Source: a virus. Taken from it: a DNA stretch of 27,593 nt. The translations under genes and the position numbers were made by a program. Positions 12,463 through 26,504 of this stretch are shown one piece after another. Numbering within the stretch: position 1 is the stretch's first letter; every line of letters begins with the position of its first letter. The DNA is taken from positions 1-27,593 of IMG/VR virus record IMGVR_UViG_3300033978_000539; one strand, given 5' to 3'. The notes beneath the pieces were generated by a model that was not told the origin of the DNA, searched no databases, and saw only the letters and a program-made list of their open reading frames with translations.

Positions 12463-12848
12463 TAGGCGCTCGAATTCTTCAGCACGAGGAGAAGGTTCAC
12501 TCGGTTGCCCGTGGCTGCCGCGACGTTGGCGAGTGCGGCCGACGAAATGTCGAAGATGCGCACTTGGAACGTCTTGGCGCTAAGGTCAACGGCGCCGATT
12601 TGGCTGGTAACCTTGTCGTCGCTGCTGGCGAGTTGCAGCGTCGCCGTCGCGGACAAGAGGCTCGTGTACACGTCTTGGAGCGTCACGGTGTAGACGCCGG
12701 TGGACGCGAGCGCGACGGATGCCACGCCGCGGCCGAGGATGGTCGTCGCGACGGGATCGGACGCGCCGTTGGTGCTCCACGAGATCGGGAGCACAACGAC
12801 GCCGGGATCGAGAGCTCCGAGGAGCTGAATGAAGGAACGCCCGGCCAT
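12462..12848 (-). CDS. Capsid-associated structural protein (128 aa)
   Basis: ATG 12848 overlaps the capsid stop as TGATG. The 128-residue protein is beta-rich with many Ala/Val/Ser/Thr (GRGVASVALASTGVYTVTLQ, then DVYTSLLSATATLQLA) and lacks charged helices. A short, beta-strand protein directly after the major capsid gene is often a decoration or cement protein, or a head fibre base. The repeating G-x-Y-T-V-T-L-x-D pattern resembles virion proteins of unknown role in similar phages. Assignment to the virion is likely; decoration is inference. Confidence 0.72.
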   Translation of the reverse strand: MAGRSFIQLLGALDPGVVVLPISWSTNGASDPVATTILGRGVASVALASTGVYTVTLQDVYTSLLSATATLQLASSDDKVTSQIGAVDLSAKTFQVRIFDISSAALANVAAATGNRVNLLLVLKNSSA

Positions 12849-14170
12849 CAGTACACCGTTGCCGCGAGGAAGTTTTTGCCGCGGCCGTTGAAGCCGGGCG
12901 CGCGACAACGCAGGTTGCCGTAGCTGCCGACGCGGATTTGGTAGGCGTCGTCATCGCTCACGCGGAGGAACTGGTTGGTATCGTAGTCGAGAATGTGGGG
13001 TGCGGCATTGAGCGAGAAGAGATCCCACGTGTCCATTTGGACCGCGAAGATCTCAGACTGCGGCACGTTGATGTCAGCCACGCACTTGACCGGGCCGGTG
13101 TCGCCCATGAGCACGATCGACTGAAAGCCGATCTCCGCGTCCTCGATGCTCACGGCGCGGTCGTAGACGGTGCGCGAGCCAAGGAACTTGTTGAGTGCCG
13201 CGAAGTCGCGCGGGTGCATGAAGCAATGGTCCGGGCGACCACCTTCCGCGGCGATGTCGCTCACGAGCTGAATGATCGCTTCGTCCGGCGAGGCGCCGGT
13301 GCAATCGAGGAGCGAGCCGCCAAGGCTGGTCTTGTCCGAGGTACGGGTGAGGCCGTAGATGTCCGCCGGGAAGAACGCCGAGGTCGAGAGGCCGGTTGCT
13401 ACGCCGAGGTCGGAACCGGCGATCCACTGCTTCATGCCGGTGACGACGTTCGAGTTCGTGAAGACGGTCGCGTTCGAGGTCGCGACGGTGCGATCGGTCG
13501 CGCGCGCGAGGTAGTGGCCCGCGGCGATGCTGGTGCCGTCGTTGACGGTGATGGTGCCGGCCTTGCGGTCAACGGCGGTGACGCGGATCGGCGTCGTGAC
13601 CGTGGAGTTGATCACGGTGTCGTACATGAACGCCGTGCCGCCGGTGCCCGAGAAGACGCTAAGGCGCTCGCCGAGGCTGAAATTGTAGGCGTCGCTCGGG
13701 GTCGCGAGCGTGATCGTCGCGGTGGCGATGCTGCCGACCTTGCCGATCGTGCCCGTGCCGTCGCGGAAGAGGTGGCGTGCGATCGAACGCATCGCGGTAA
13801 ACATCGCGAGGTCCATCGTATCCTGGAAAAGGTCCACCATGGCGCCCTCATCCATGACGGCCGCCTTCATCGCCTCGCCGCTGATGGTCGCGAGCGAGTA
13901 GTCGCTCTTGCGCGTGAGCGTGAAGGTCTTGTAGGTGTCGTTGTAGGCCTGGGAGGTTTCCGAGGCGGCCTTAGCGCCGCTGAAGGTCGCACCGCCACCC
14001 TGGATCGAGTTGATCGTGAGCGGAACGTCCACGCTCTTACCGACGAAATTCGTCTTCTTGGCGAGCATCGCGAAGAAGGGGTTATTTTTGCGGAGCTCGC
14101 GCGGGACCGTGTAGTCCGGGTAGAGGAACTTGATGATAGAGGCGGCGGATGCAGTGTCCAAAACGGGCAT
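12848..14170 (-). CDS. Major capsid protein
   Basis: The 440-residue protein follows the scaffold, as expected for the main shell protein. It begins MPVLDTASAASIIKFLYPDY and has the low-Lys, beta-rich composition of phage shell proteins, with a long helix around MVDLFQDTMDLAMFTAMRSI and a C-terminal part (FAVQMDTWDLFSLNAAPHIL, then GSYGNLRCRAPGFNGRG) typical of the axial domain end. An inserted Ig-like beta region (about 170-230, with IRVTAVDRKAGTITV) is likely. ATG 14170 with AGGA 7 bases upstream is preferred to an in-frame ATG at 14212 that would begin inside the leader hairpin. No processing site is evident. HK97 fold is inferred from context. Confidence 0.85.
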   Translation of the reverse strand: MPVLDTASAASIIKFLYPDYTVPRELRKNNPFFAMLAKKTNFVGKSVDVPLTINSIQGGGATFSGAKAASETSQAYNDTYKTFTLTRKSDYSLATISGEAMKAAVMDEGAMVDLFQDTMDLAMFTAMRSIARHLFRDGTGTIGKVGSIATATITLATPSDAYNFSLGERLSVFSGTGGTAFMYDTVINSTVTTPIRVTAVDRKAGTITVNDGTSIAAGHYLARATDRTVATSNATVFTNSNVVTGMKQWIAGSDLGVATGLSTSAFFPADIYGLTRTSDKTSLGGSLLDCTGASPDEAIIQLVSDIAAEGGRPDHCFMHPRDFAALNKFLGSRTVYDRAVSIEDAEIGFQSIVLMGDTGPVKCVADINVPQSEIFAVQMDTWDLFSLNAAPHILDYDTNQFLRVSDDDAYQIRVGSYGNLRCRAPGFNGRGKNFLAATVY

Positions 14171-14183
14171 GATGGTCCTAGTA

Positions 14184-14210
14184 GGCGGGAGGTTGGTGGT
14201 TCCTCCCGCC
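14184..14210. repeat. 9-bp perfect hairpin upstream of major capsid gene
   Basis: GGCGGGAGG (14184-14192) pairs perfectly with CCTCCCGCC (14202-14210) around a 9-base loop in the 51-base gap between scaffold and capsid genes. There is no T run in either direction, so it is not a simple intrinsic terminator. A stem just upstream of the most expressed gene could be an RNA-processing or stability element. Confidence 0.6.
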
Positions 14211-14221
14211 ACCGGTCACCG

Positions 14222-22270: not shown

Positions 22271-22497
22271 GGCTCCGCTCCCTTCTGCTCGTTGCGCCGG
22301 CACGCGCCGCACGCCGTGACCTTGGCCTTCAGGTCCGCTTCCCACTTGGTGGACGCATACCCGCACTTGCATCGCACCGCCCATTTGCGGCTCAAATTGT
22401 TTGGCCCGTCCTGCACGAGCTCGACGAGCGTCCAGTCATTGTGCCGGTCGCCGGGCTGGCGCGTGCGCTTTCGCAGGCATCTGCGCTTGATGGTCAT
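22267..22497 (-). CDS. Small zinc-binding phage protein (76 aa)
   Basis: Start ATG 22497 overlaps the rusA stop. A very basic N terminus (KRRCLRKRTRQPGD) is followed by a compact domain with CKCG and CGAC Cys pairs about 20 residues apart, with W and R residues before the first pair (RKWAVRCKCG). This Cys layout is common in short phage proteins and in the N-terminal part of some HNH or AP2-type phage proteins, where it binds zinc and probably nucleic acid. No nuclease domain is present. Its stop overlaps the methyltransferase start (ATGA). Confidence 0.72.
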   Translation of the reverse strand: MTIKRRCLRKRTRQPGDRHNDWTLVELVQDGPNNLSRKWAVRCKCGYASTKWEADLKAKVTACGACRRNEQKGAEP

Positions 22498-23108
22498 TGC
22501 TGCGCCTCCTTTGCACCTTTACGGGCCTTTGGTGCGCTCGGGCTACCTGCGGTCGTTTTCTTCCGCTTAGGCGCGTCTAGGCCCCACGACGGCGGAGGAA
22601 ACCCCCTACCCGTCTCGGATAGGCGCCGCACGCGAATCACGAGCTGATGCCATTCGGCTTCGTCGGTCTGGATGAAGTCCACCGTCAAAGAGCGAATTTG
22701 CGAGTCGTTGCGCCAGAGCTCGGCACCGGGCGCCTCGCCGCGGTGAAGCTGCCCGGCGTCCATGACGGTCTTAGCGGCGTTGTCGAGGTCGCCGCTTTGC
22801 TTCGGCGCCCAAAACGCGAGGTCGAGGCGCATCGGCCCGGCGCTCTGCCATGGCGCGGCTTCGCCAAAGTGCCCGGCCTCGAGGATGCCGCGTGCGTACG
22901 CGAGCGAGGCCGCCAGCTTGGCGCAGTGCCTGCGGTAGGTCGTCGGCATGAACGTGCCGCGGCCGGTCACGCGCGGGCGCGGGCTCGGGACCATGGGCGC
23001 GTAGACGTGCGCGACGAGATCCCACCCGAGCTCCTCGGTGACGTGTACCTCGTAGCCGCCGGGCACCTCGTGCGCGTAGGCGGGGACGTTGATTGATTCG
23101 TGCTTCAT
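22494..23108 (-). CDS. rusA: RusA-family Holliday-junction resolvase
   Basis: The product resolves four-way DNA junctions or branched replication intermediates before packaging. The RusA signature is visible: PMVPSPRPRVTGRGTFM near residues 38-54 (substrate-binding N-terminal strand region), a basic helix, GDLDN at 106-110 carrying the two catalytic aspartates (Asp107, Asp109), then MDAGQL and WRNDSQI with Asp135, the third metal-binding acid. At 204 residues it is longer than E. coli RusA (about 120): the extra length is an N-terminal 30-residue extension and a Lys/Ala/Pro-rich tail after residue 165. AAAGGA about 6 bases upstream supports ATG 23108. The stop overlaps the next gene by ATGA. 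Confidence 0.9.
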   Translation of the reverse strand: MKHESINVPAYAHEVPGGYEVHVTEELGWDLVAHVYAPMVPSPRPRVTGRGTFMPTTYRRHCAKLAASLAYARGILEAGHFGEAAPWQSAGPMRLDLAFWAPKQSGDLDNAAKTVMDAGQLHRGEAPGAELWRNDSQIRSLTVDFIQTDEAEWHQLVIRVRRLSETGRGFPPPSWGLDAPKRKKTTAGSPSAPKARKGAKEAQQ

Positions 23109-23123: not shown

Positions 23124-23402
23124 CTAGTCGAGCTCTGCAATTTCGATGGCTGCCTCACTGTCGCGCCACGCGGCCTCGAGGGCCTGCCACGCCGCCACGC
23201 TCTGCGCGCGGTCGTGGAAGTTGGACGGGCGCTCGATGCCGGTCTTGACGCACTCGGACCAGAGCCACGCGGCAATCTGGCCGGGGCTTGGCGTGGCGCC
23301 GAGGTCCATGAGCATGGCGGCGACGATGGTTTCAGCCGGGCGCTGGCGAGCGTCGGCGAGGCGGACAATGCGGGCGAGGTGGTGCGGGTGAATGTCGATC
23401 AT
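23124..23402 (-). CDS. Hypothetical protein between helicase and resolvase (92 aa)
   Basis: Start ATG 23402 overlaps the helicase stop as ATGA. The 92 residues are mostly helical: a His-rich N terminus (MIDIHPHHLARIVRLA), a central helix (AETIVAAMLMDLGA), a segment with two Trp residues (IAAWLWSECV) and an acidic C terminus. I do not recognise the family. Its place between helicase and resolvase suggests an accessory role in DNA metabolism, not shown by sequence. A 15-base gap with an AAAGGA ribosome-binding site separates it from the next gene. Confidence 0.7.
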   Translation of the reverse strand: MIDIHPHHLARIVRLADARQRPAETIVAAMLMDLGATPSPGQIAAWLWSECVKTGIERPSNFHDRAQSVAAWQALEAAWRDSEAAIEIAELD

Positions 23403-24742
23403 GGCGTCATGCTGTAGGTTTCGCGGGTCGCATCCCATGTCATGCGAAAGAAGGCGGCGCGACCATCGCGCGCCTTTTGGATGCTTAGCGCCGGCTCGGC
23501 TTGCGGACCGGGCTCCGCTCCGGGGAGCGGGCGCGAGAAGAGAAGCACGGTGTCAGCGTGCCGCAGGATCGCGTAGCTGTCGCCGATCATGCCGCGCGTG
23601 GCCTTGGCCCCGGCCTTTTCGGCCTCGCGGTTGAGTTGCGCCAGGGCGAGCACGGGTGCGCCAATGGTGCGCGCGAGGATCTTCAGCCGGCGCGCGTACT
23701 CGCCGAGGAGCTCGTGTTTTTCCATGCGTCGGCGCGCGTCGTCGCCGGTCGGGTCGAGAATGCCGAGGTAGTCCACGACAATGAGGCCGAGGCGCTCGCC
23801 GCGCTCCTCGAGGCGTGCCTTGAAGGCCTTTGCTCTCATGGCGACGTGGTCCGTGCTCTGCCCGGCGTCGCACGACCACTCGACGCGCAGGCCTCGGCCC
23901 ACGAGCGAGCTGATGCCGCGAATGAGCTCGGCGTAGGCCTGCGACTGAAGCTGCGGCGGGAGGACCTCGGGGCGGTGCTCGCAGCCGTACTCCTGCCGCG
24001 CCACGCGGGCGAGGTTGGCGCTCGCGGGCATTTCGAGGCCCACGAACATGCACCAAGAGCCGGCGGCGGCGCACGCTCGCGCGTACTGGATCGCGAGGAC
24101 GGTCTTACCCACGCCGGTTGCGGCGGCGAGCACGGTGAGGCTGCCGGGGCTGAGCTGCACGCAGGCATCGAGGCCCGGCCATGGGCTCGGGGTTGCGGCG
24201 ACGGTGCGAGCCGTGAGGCGTTTGACAAGCTCGTTGGCGGCGTCCTTTGTGCTGATGAGGCCTTGCGCGCCATCGGCCACGCGCGGCGTCACACGCTCGA
24301 GGAGCTCGGCGCGGAGCTGCTCGCCGTTCTCGATCATGCCCTCGGCGCGTCCGGCCACCTCGGCGCACACGCGGCGAAGCTCTCGGAGCTCGTGCGCGTT
24401 GGTGAGCTCGCGCACCAATTCCTCGGCGCGCTCGTCGTTGTCGAGGCGCCCACGCTCGAGGTAGCCGGCGGCCTGCTCGCGAACGGTGAGCCACCAGCCG
24501 CGCCACCCGTCCGGGCTCGCGGGCACGGATGCTTTGGCGGCAATGAGGCGCTCGAGCACGTTCCACCCGGCGGGGCCTTCGCCGTCCGCCTCGAGGCGCT
24601 TGGCCTCGCGCCACCAGTCGGCGCAAGGGCTCTGCGCGAAGTGCTCGGGCTCGAGGGCCTCGAGCATGTAGGCCCGCGCGGCGGCCTTGGCCTCGCACAC
24701 GAACACGCATGCGGCGAGCTCGGCCTGTACGGCGACCATCAT
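23399..24742 (-). CDS. Replicative DNA helicase, DnaB family
   Basis: The 447-residue product unwinds DNA ahead of the phage replication fork. The C-terminal RecA-like core shows Walker A ATGVGKT (208-214), GLEM (235-238) with the Glu at the catalytic position, Walker B LIVVDY (320-325), the QLNR motif (369-372) and a C-terminal RHADTVLLFSR (394-404) then KARDGR (423-428) region typical of DnaB. Residues 1-150 are a helical N-terminal domain as in DnaB, with SPCADWWREA resembling the HxxIw part. Length is near the usual 450-480. I chose ATG 24742, which overlaps the previous stop (ATGA); a second ATG follows immediately, and an upstream ATG at 24787 would overlap the previous gene by about 50 bases. 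The short gene after it overlaps by ATGA. Confidence 0.93.
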   Translation of the reverse strand: MMVAVQAELAACVFVCEAKAAARAYMLEALEPEHFAQSPCADWWREAKRLEADGEGPAGWNVLERLIAAKASVPASPDGWRGWWLTVREQAAGYLERGRLDNDERAEELVRELTNAHELRELRRVCAEVAGRAEGMIENGEQLRAELLERVTPRVADGAQGLISTKDAANELVKRLTARTVAATPSPWPGLDACVQLSPGSLTVLAAATGVGKTVLAIQYARACAAAGSWCMFVGLEMPASANLARVARQEYGCEHRPEVLPPQLQSQAYAELIRGISSLVGRGLRVEWSCDAGQSTDHVAMRAKAFKARLEERGERLGLIVVDYLGILDPTGDDARRRMEKHELLGEYARRLKILARTIGAPVLALAQLNREAEKAGAKATRGMIGDSYAILRHADTVLLFSRPLPGAEPGPQAEPALSIQKARDGRAAFFRMTWDATRETYSMTP

Positions 24743-25437
24743 CGGCGCACCTGCGAATGATGAGGGATGCCGACGCTCGCGAACCACTCTTCCTGGGTCT
24801 GCGTCTTGGCCGTCTTAGGCCCGGAACGCTCGATGTCGTTTGCGTAGTCGTTCATGGTCCAATGCAGGTTGAGGCTTTGGCCGTTTAGCCGGCGACGGCG
24901 CACCACGTCGGCAAACGTCTCGCCGTTGGCGTAAACGGCGCGATGGAACTGCTGCGCCTTGGTTGCCATGGCTGCGCCGGTCACGCACGACGGCGTGCCG
25001 GTCACTTCGGTGATCGCGGCGTTCCACTGTCCGAGGCAAGTGCTCTTGGACGAGGCGTAGCGAGGCGCCGCAGGCGCCTTTGTCTTCTCCGAAGGAGAAG
25101 TGCTGTTGTGTTGTGTTGTGATATCCGTGACGTCACGTGACGACACGTTAGGTCGCGTGTCGTCACGTGACGTCACGTGACGTTTTGAGCGAGCGGTGCG
25201 CGAGCGTGCACGGTCGGCGAGCTGCTTTGTGATGAGCTCGTCGAGGGGGCGCCAAAGCCCAAGTTTGCGGAGCTGTTCGATCTGCTCCGGCGTGATGCCC
25301 GGAACGTCGTCGCTCTCCTCCGTGACACGATACTCCGTCGCGAGGAGGAATGTCTTTGCAAGGTCTACTTGGCCAAGCTCAAGGAGCATGCGCACCCGCG
25401 CATCGTCGGCGACTTCCCTACGGGACCAGCCGGCCAT
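24739..25437 (-). CDS. Putative replication initiator / helicase-loader protein with internal origin-like repeats
   Basis: This 232-residue protein directly precedes, and overlaps, the replicative helicase gene, the position held by initiator or loader genes in many phages (as lambda O and P precede helicase recruitment). Residues 1-75 are helical (DDARVRMLLELGQVDLAKTF, then ITPEQIEQLRKLGLW). Residues 76-130 form a low-complexity Arg/Ser/Thr linker encoded by the palindromic DNA at 25126-25182. Residues 131-232 form a second domain (GQWNAAITEVTG, then FADVVRRRRLNGQSLNLHW). Start ATG 25437 overlaps the upstream stop as TGATG. I recognise no diagnostic family motif and see no Walker A, so an ATPase loader of DnaC type is unlikely. 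The initiator call is from context and the embedded repeats. Confidence 0.5.
   Translation of the reverse strand: MAGWSRREVADDARVRMLLELGQVDLAKTFLLATEYRVTEESDDVPGITPEQIEQLRKLGLWRPLDELITKQLADRARSRTARSKRHVTSRDDTRPNVSSRDVTDITTQHNSTSPSEKTKAPAAPRYASSKSTCLGQWNAAITEVTGTPSCVTGAAMATKAQQFHRAVYANGETFADVVRRRRLNGQSLNLHWTMNDYANDIERSGPKTAKTQTQEEWFASVGIPHHSQVRR
25063..25079. repeat. 7-bp inverted repeat (AGGCGCC / GGCGCCT)
   Basis: AGGCGCC (25063-25069) and GGCGCCT (25073-25079) are perfect reverse complements around GCA. It is the outermost of three inverted repeats packed into about 120 bases of the putative initiator gene. Confidence 0.5.
25084..25100. repeat. 7-bp inverted repeat with 3-base loop
   Basis: CTTCTCC (25084-25090) and GGAGAAG (25094-25100) are perfect reverse complements around GAA. 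The hairpin lies between the GGCGCC hairpin at 25063-25079 and the large palindrome block, in the linker-coding part of the putative initiator gene. Confidence 0.5.
25126..25177. repeat. Perfect 22-bp inverted repeat with nested CGTCACGTGACG palindromes (candidate replication origin)
   Basis: Left arm 25126-25147 and right arm 25156-25177 are perfect reverse complements across an 8-base spacer (TTAGGTCG). Each arm contains the 12-bp palindrome CGTCACGTGACG (25131-25142 and 25161-25172); a third copy at 25171-25182 overlaps the second with a 10-bp period. The palindrome GTGACGTCAC also occurs twice (25127-25136, 25167-25176). The block encodes residues 86-104 of the putative initiator. Such density is not expected from coding constraint alone and suits a protein-binding site or origin. 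Origin function is inferred from position inside the gene just upstream of the helicase. Confidence 0.6.
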
Positions 25438-26062: not shown

Positions 26063-26226
26063 GCCTGCACCTTCGCTGCGTGCCATCGGGCGCGGGCTTG
26101 GTGCTGCTCGGCGTAGAGGCGCACCTCTGCCGCTCGGATGGCGTGCGCGCGGTCCTCGAGGCGCATGATGCGCTCAAAGGTCCAGTCACCGATTATGGCG
26201 CGCGCTTGGCGCTCGTCCGCGTTCAT
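26059..26226 (-). CDS. Small hypothetical protein (55 aa)
   Basis: The ATG at 26226 overlaps the stop of the HTH gene (ATGA), and the TGA at 26059 overlaps the next start in the same way, so the frame is bracketed by two coupled junctions. The protein is highly charged and predicted helical throughout, with many Arg, Ala and Glu residues (DERQARAIIGDWTFERIM, then a second helix rich in Arg). I recognise no motif. It could be a small accessory DNA-binding or anti-host protein, but nothing in the sequence shows that. Confidence 0.62.
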   Translation of the reverse strand: MNADERQARAIIGDWTFERIMRLEDRAHAIRAAEVRLYAEQHQARARWHAAKVQA

Positions 26227-26504
26227 CGCGCGGCCTCGATGGCGCGCTCGAAGGCGGCGCGGTCGCGGAAGATCGTGGCCTCGGTTTCGGCCGGGAGCTT
26301 CCGGGCCTCGAAGAGCGCGTCGAGCGTCTCGGATGCCGTGGCGCCGAGGCCGTTGCAGATCCGCTCGATGGTCTGCGCCTTGACCGAGATGCCCTTGGTG
26401 CCGAGCTCGATGGCGTTGATGGTGGTGTGCGACGTGGCGCACCGCACCGACGCCTCGCGAAGCGAATAGCCGGCACGGGCGCGAAGCATGGCGATCGTGC
26501 TCAA
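26223..26504 (-). CDS. Small HTH transcriptional regulator, Cro/C1 (XRE) type
   Basis: This 93-residue protein starts at TTG (26504), which overlaps the previous stop as TTGA. Residues about 4-62 match the five-helix Cro/C1-type helix-turn-helix layout: YSLREASVRCATSHTTINAIE supplies helices 2 and 3 (the recognition helix is near SHTTINAIELG), and KAQTIERICNGLGATASETLDAL the last helices. The remaining 30 residues form a charged helix. Family members bind operator DNA as dimers. Here the gene is buried in a one-direction operon with no divergent partner or integrase nearby, so a role as an early-to-late switch or autoregulator is more likely than a lysogeny repressor; that is inference. Confidence 0.8.
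   Translation of the reverse strand: MSTIAMLRARAGYSLREASVRCATSHTTINAIELGTKGISVKAQTIERICNGLGATASETLDALFEARKLPAETEATIFRDRAAFERAIEAAR

Follow-up and report, generated by a model that had tools for sequence, protein, structure and literature searches.

The window, by which we mean the whole stretch of 27,593 bases analysed here, is an IMG/VR virus record and an incomplete linear fragment. Its main genes all lie on the minus strand, and its profile matches include a SU10-type major capsid protein (12848-14212, PF17236) and a RusA-like resolvase (22494-23108, PF05866). On the minus strand the called gene of a putative 232-residue, replisome-organizer-like initiator (24739-25437) comes first and that of a DnaB-type replicative helicase (23399-24742; DnaB_C PF03796, 1.4e-28; PHROG_19, 2.1e-32) comes next. 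The initiator gene contains the array that is the subject of this work, and a sequence-only reading of the same DNA had rightly placed it there, just before the helicase.

This origin-like array (25123-25182), recognised from the sequence and from counterparts in relatives, comprises six units of 8 bp, each exactly 10 bp from the next. On the gene strand they read, in order, TCACGTGA (25173-25180), TCACGTGA (25163-25170), the decayed units ACACGCGA (25153-25160) and TAACGTGT (25143-25150), a third perfect TCACGTGA (25133-25140) and TCACGGAT (25123-25130), of which half is kept. The units have G/C flanks, and since 10 is not a multiple of 3, successive units are read in different frames. Because each unit is itself a palindrome, the array contains an inverted repeat whose arms (25126-25147 and 25156-25177) are perfect over 22 nt around an 8-nt spacer. 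In a search of the whole window (arms of at least 12, spacer of at most 30) this was the longest perfect inverted repeat, the other ones listed being registers of it, and in five block-shuffled windows such repeats reach 12 bp at most. The sequence-only reading had also described three nested palindromes, two of them overlapping with a 10-bp period, and CGTCACGTGACG does occur exactly three times in the window, always within the array (25131, 25161 and 25171). With two mismatches allowed it has six matches where 3.4 are expected, which is not striking, so the signal lies in the clustering. The palindromes and their period stand as first described and go far beyond what chance would give; what seems to function as the unit is not the 22-bp repeat but TCACGTGA, set on a lattice of 10 bp.

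Located some 260 bp into the gene, the array falls in the part that encodes a linker and is followed by a strand-asymmetric, A/C-rich ATATCACAACACAACACAACAG tract (25103-25125, minus strand), a candidate element for unwinding or for loading onto single-stranded DNA. With 48% AT in the 60 nt beyond the last perfect unit, compared with 34% over the whole window, the AT-richness is slight, and GC skew makes no turn at the array in this incomplete linear fragment.

Searched alone, the 232-residue protein matched no Pfam, PHROG or NCBIfam family and found no close relatives. It has no match to the PF09681 Phage_rep_org_N profile, and profile-profile comparison gave a probability of 17. Of the eight proteins of its group, four match PHROG replication initiation proteins (best 5.6e-11), and members weakly match the DnaT DNA-binding domain. 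In the AlphaFold model, one helical part at the N-terminus ends in a helix at residues 65-85 (N-domain helices at pLDDT 85-90; overall pTM 0.33) and another helical part forms the C-terminus; Foldseek found no match to the model in the PDB. Between the two parts, residues 89-155 are of low confidence and include most of the residues that the array encodes, in agreement with the linker placement first suggested. The basic end of helix 65-85, DRARSRTAR (codons 75-83; 25189-25215, minus strand), is the proposed DNA reader. A motif N/D/T/E-R-x-R-x4-R adjoins the sites in other initiators, and DRARSRTAR fits its frame with D at position 0 and R at positions 3 and 8; in the window, positions 4 and 7 are S and A, neither of which is among the residues seen in PF09681.

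Relatives of the phage

Searching with the helicase gave nine loci, seven of which have a complete gene before a helicase that is 62-99% identical to that of the window. Six of the seven carry pairs or triples of TCACGTGA in the linker-coding part, at spacings of 20+10 bp (L006 and L011), 30 bp (L008 and L009), 40 bp (L007) and 33 bp (L005), with decayed units filling the 10-bp lattice (an 11-bp lattice in L005). The seventh, L010, has CGTGACG repeats at the array's place and no TCACGTGA pair. Where the window has ATATCACAACACAACACAACAG after the array, relatives have AAGACAAGACAAG or AGAGAGAGCAGAG tracts, whose asymmetry is stronger. The initiator proteins themselves are only 18-50% identical to that of the window, and the palindromes persist although the protein around them is changed or shuffled. 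The comparison among relatives that the sequence-only reading had called for thus came out as the reverse of what would have counted against an origin, namely a conserved protein without its palindromes.

L005 is a nearly identical phage: it has a 99% identical helicase and the C-terminal end of the initiator in common with the window, and a different N-terminal half with a TCACGTGA pair of its own. Aligned against positions 769-1392 of L005, the window gene (24739-25437) has its N-terminal half and origin-like array replaced together, a natural module swap.

ACGT palindromes in other viral contigs

Scanning IMG/VR viral contigs for two copies of TCACGTGA within 10-40 bp gave at least 120 loci, and the control palindrome AGTGCACT gave 105 in all. 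The TCACGTGA clusters split into two classes by their flanks, G/C or T/A. Among the matches listed there are 88 G/C-flanked clusters that an ORF covers, and 75 of these belong to a single BLAST component made up of initiator-like genes, with the T/A-flanked clusters outside it; only a single control locus has an ORF similar to these genes. When 40 sequences (the window's and 39 picked from the G/C-flanked set) were scanned for annotation, the leading annotations were PHROG 'replication initiation protein' families, with 18 matches, and Phage_rep_org_N, with 10. Unrelated phages share the layout of the array in their initiator genes. The adjoining helicase, the initiation families matched by relatives and a motif that marks initiator genes all support the origin role that had been suggested from the sequence, and replication would start here.

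The site parS, TGTTTCACGTGAAACA, contains the TCACGTGA core, and the T/A-flanked clusters are probably parS sites of a ParB partition system. That a T/A-flanked class exists among viral clusters, with the core in common, raises the question of whether the array in the window is a partition site of the ParB/parS type; its units are flanked by G/C and not by T/A (TTTCACGTGAAA), however, and the T/A-flanked clusters are neither part of the initiator component nor helically phased, which makes a partition site extremely improbable. T/A-flanked TTTCACGTGAAA clusters were seen on viral or prophage contigs in L023, L040, L056, L117 and others, and L023 has four, spaced exactly 30 bp apart, inside an ORF.

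Non-redundant TCACGTGA spacings among the matches listed are 10-12, 20-24, 30-33 and 40 bp, and a Rayleigh test at a period of 10.5 bp gave R=0.75 (p=5e-12, n=47), compared with R=0.25 for the control palindrome and R=0.25, not significant, for parS-type sites. The earlier suggestion that a 10-bp spacing puts the copies on one face of the helix fits this period well. In the same non-redundant set there is no 3-bp preference. Of 33 genes compared for reading frame, 20 use both of the frames open to the sites; what is kept is therefore the DNA and not a repeated peptide.

These results bear on two readings that would do without a protein-binding array. According to one, the repeats are low-complexity coding sequence for VTSRD-type linker peptides and have no function as DNA, which would suit a linker that is modelled as disordered and would tolerate repeats. 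Sites in two frames encode different peptides, though, the spacings are helical and not multiples of 3, and only two of the 256 possible palindromes are enriched in the gene set described below, so that we regard this reading as very improbable. According to the other, the 22-bp inverted repeat forms an RNA hairpin (a terminator, attenuator or processing site) in an early transcript, as its perfect arms and 8-nt loop would permit. Against a hairpin stand the lack of a U-run after the repeat in the gene sense, the variable spacings at which relatives keep their palindromes, a DNA-turn phasing that would be meaningless for RNA, and Staphylococcus-type units that lie 10 bp apart without a long inverted repeat; we hold it to be highly unlikely.

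PF09681 initiators and residue-base covariation

To look at initiators chosen without the motif, 80 Firmicutes PF09681 genes were fetched by protein patterns, not by palindrome, from species-level genomes, which were used because a PF09681 profile scan of viral contigs had given 80 near-identical loci. When all 256 palindromic 8-mers were counted as pairs within these 80 genes, TAACGTTA was paired in 15, TCACGTGA in 12, CGGATCCG in three and ATATATAT in one, and no palindromic 8-mer of the 256 was paired in flanks of equal length. When TAACGTTA pairs were scanned for separately, PF09681 genes turned up once more at spacings of 11-12 bp. PF09681/TIGR01714 initiators with TCACGTGA or TAACGTTA pairs resemble the window in the order of their parts: a basic helix, phased palindromes with an ACGT core immediately after it in the linker, next a tract that is acidic or rich in proline, and last a C-terminal domain. 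They differ in the N-domain, a winged helix in PF09681 (Foldseek found only weak winged-helix resemblances for the model) and a different, all-helical fold in the window. AlphaFold places the basic segment of a PF09681 initiator in a helix at residues 106-132, and in both families the model passes from the basic helix straight into a linker of low confidence, at residue 85 in the window protein and 132 in PF09681, with no leucine zipper to continue the basic region.

Just upstream of the array, PF09681 proteins have N/T-R-x-R-x4-R in this helix, and its position 4 covaries with the palindrome. In the 80 PF09681 genes taken with 13 phage homologues (92 usable, 8 not classed), position 4 is K or N in 37 of 37 genes rich in GTCAC/GTGAC half-sites and V, Q or A in 47 of 47 genes rich in GTAAC/GTTAC half-sites, with half-site purities of 153:7 and 226:10, respectively. 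Counting distinct motifs only, the association is 17/17 versus 0/32 (p=1.5e-13), a figure inflated by co-inheritance because reader and site are neighbours; such co-inheritance could itself give the covariation. An N-domain tree shows 18 changes of site and 18 of residue, which agree with each other, and the four independent switches on well-supported branches are all concordant. The N subgroup (NAERNRRYR) is better described by GTGACGTCAC and is perhaps a third specificity. Staphylococcus phages 832 and 29 have 103 of the first 104 initiator residues identical and differ in both the basic segment and the palindrome, which points away from the winged helix as the determinant of specificity. 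The basic helix is probably the reader in PF09681 and also, by analogy, in the window; the code was derived in PF09681, and the window's S4 and A7 lie outside the residues seen there, so its transfer is analogy as well. The sequence-only reading had proposed that the gene's own product binds the array, and this we retain, with the likely reader narrowed from the whole protein to the basic helix encoded just upstream.

The covariation also bears on a further reading, in which the array is an operator through which the initiator or the HTH protein encoded at 26223-26504 would regulate the operon while replication starts elsewhere. Palindromes phased to the helical turn suit repressors too, and the window does encode such an HTH_31 protein. 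The array, however, is about 260 bp inside the gene and away from a promoter, its counterparts in other phages lie in initiator genes that are differently composed, and the residue covariation links it to the initiator; an operator in place of an origin is accordingly unlikely. Autoregulation by the initiator could exist alongside an origin role.

Discussion

We consider it very likely that the array is an intragenic replication origin of the lambda O kind, bound by the product of the gene that contains it, which would load the neighbouring helicase. Copies of the 232-residue initiator would bind along one face of the helix to the TCACGTGA palindromes, reading the DNA with the arginine-rich end of the last N-terminal helix. 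The A/C-rich tract beside the array would then open, and loading of the DnaB-type helicase encoded next door may be aided by the protein's C-terminal part, which in relatives is DnaT-like. The coding sequence of the reader helix precedes its own sites by some 10-30 bp, so reader and site would travel as a cassette.

Intragenic phage origins are already known. The lambda origin consists of repeated dyad-symmetric sites in the linker-coding part of gene O, adjoined by an asymmetric A-rich tract, and its iterons of about 19 bp are read by the N-domain of O. The window resembles it in having repeated sites in the linker-coding DNA of a putative initiator, an asymmetric tract beside them and a helicase function encoded next; it differs in that its lattice of 10-bp steps is built from 8-bp palindromes with an ACGT core and that the phage encodes the helicase itself, and no sequence relation was found between the window protein and lambda O. 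For phage 80alpha, genetic evidence places the origin inside ORF20, which is not complemented in trans, and the origin oriL of SPP1 is likewise reported within its replisome-organizer gene, gene 38 (both in PMC5499656). 80alpha has in common with the window an origin in a replisome-organizer gene and palindromes in the linker, but these palindromes are CCAACGTTGG and CCGTTAACGG and the ORF20 protein is without the WIKL..NRxR pattern. Neither of two experimentally studied origin genes, TP901-1 rep and 80alpha ORF20, has TCACGTGA/TAACGTTA palindromes or the basic motif. A further parallel is found in phage initiators of proteobacterial and actinobacterial type (PHROG 1408, 1032, 2447 and others), in which RRRxxDRxRQxRRR stands beside TCACGTGA pairs that encode HVTSRD; their profile matches that of the window group (probability 98, E 1.8e-14), while their N-terminal part cannot be aligned to the window's.

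The proposed mode of reading recalls eukaryotic bZIP proteins, which contact bases from offsets 0, 3, 4, 7 and 8 of their basic region and whose plant sites typically have an ACGT core (G-box, C-box, T-box). The key offsets of the phage basic helix are the same, and its main site types are all ACGT-core palindromes; the differences are that the phage initiators have no leucine zipper and show no evidence of homology. We propose that the likeness is convergence in how reading works and not membership of a family. To a more general proposal we would give an even chance: that many tailed phages of unrelated hosts carry a portable cassette of a bZIP-like basic helix (N/D-R-x-R-x4-R) with its own phased ACGT-core palindromes within about 100 bp, in which residue 4 sets the flanking base (K for CACGTG; V, Q or A for AACGTT; N probably for GACGTC), and that reader and site are exchanged together, so that related phages do not fire each other's origins.

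In the open-access literature, supplements aside, we found no report that links TCACGTGA, GTCACGTGAC or GTAACGTTAC to phage origins, and none that describes the TCACGTGA/TAACGTTA motif, the way it is phased or the residue-base code. Few phage origins have been mapped, and a generic name is all that most initiator genes bear. If the proposal holds, many phage and prophage origins could be located from sequence alone, and a single residue would predict their site; a bacterial virus would then have a compact protein-DNA code resembling the eukaryotic bZIP solution. With reader and site as one cassette, the way in which phages exchange initiator modules and yet keep their origin would be explained as well. 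The covariation suggests a simple, testable code by which many phages would recognise the start of replication.

Several further observations were made among related genes. In two PF09681 genes (L486 and L509) an HNH-nuclease-like segment (CPYCGKHTKLTIDHIIPLTKRG and CVYCGSNKDLCMDHL) follows the basic segment in place of the palindromes, none of which are present there. Two Paenibacillus prophages (L522 and L526) have the segment ERKRKAEQR followed by GTCCCGG-type repeats, which are not ACGT palindromes. The distant initiators of Streptococcus phages Javan214, Javan44 and Javan371 (L334, L335 and L336) have DRxR-type segments, and the other repeated palindromic sequences in their linker region, TGTACAAATGTACA and TTGTCCGGACAA, hint at further specificities. 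Finally, TAACGTTA pairs 21 or 24 bp apart occur just after the HTH in genes resembling terminase small subunits (L348, L373, L381, L383, L396, L399, L406, L419, L429, L446, L449, L450, L455 and L456), whose proteins follow the pattern ..IRKWKSQDKW..GNVTKSNSNVT..GGAPSGNKNA; perhaps the same principle underlies intragenic packaging sites here.
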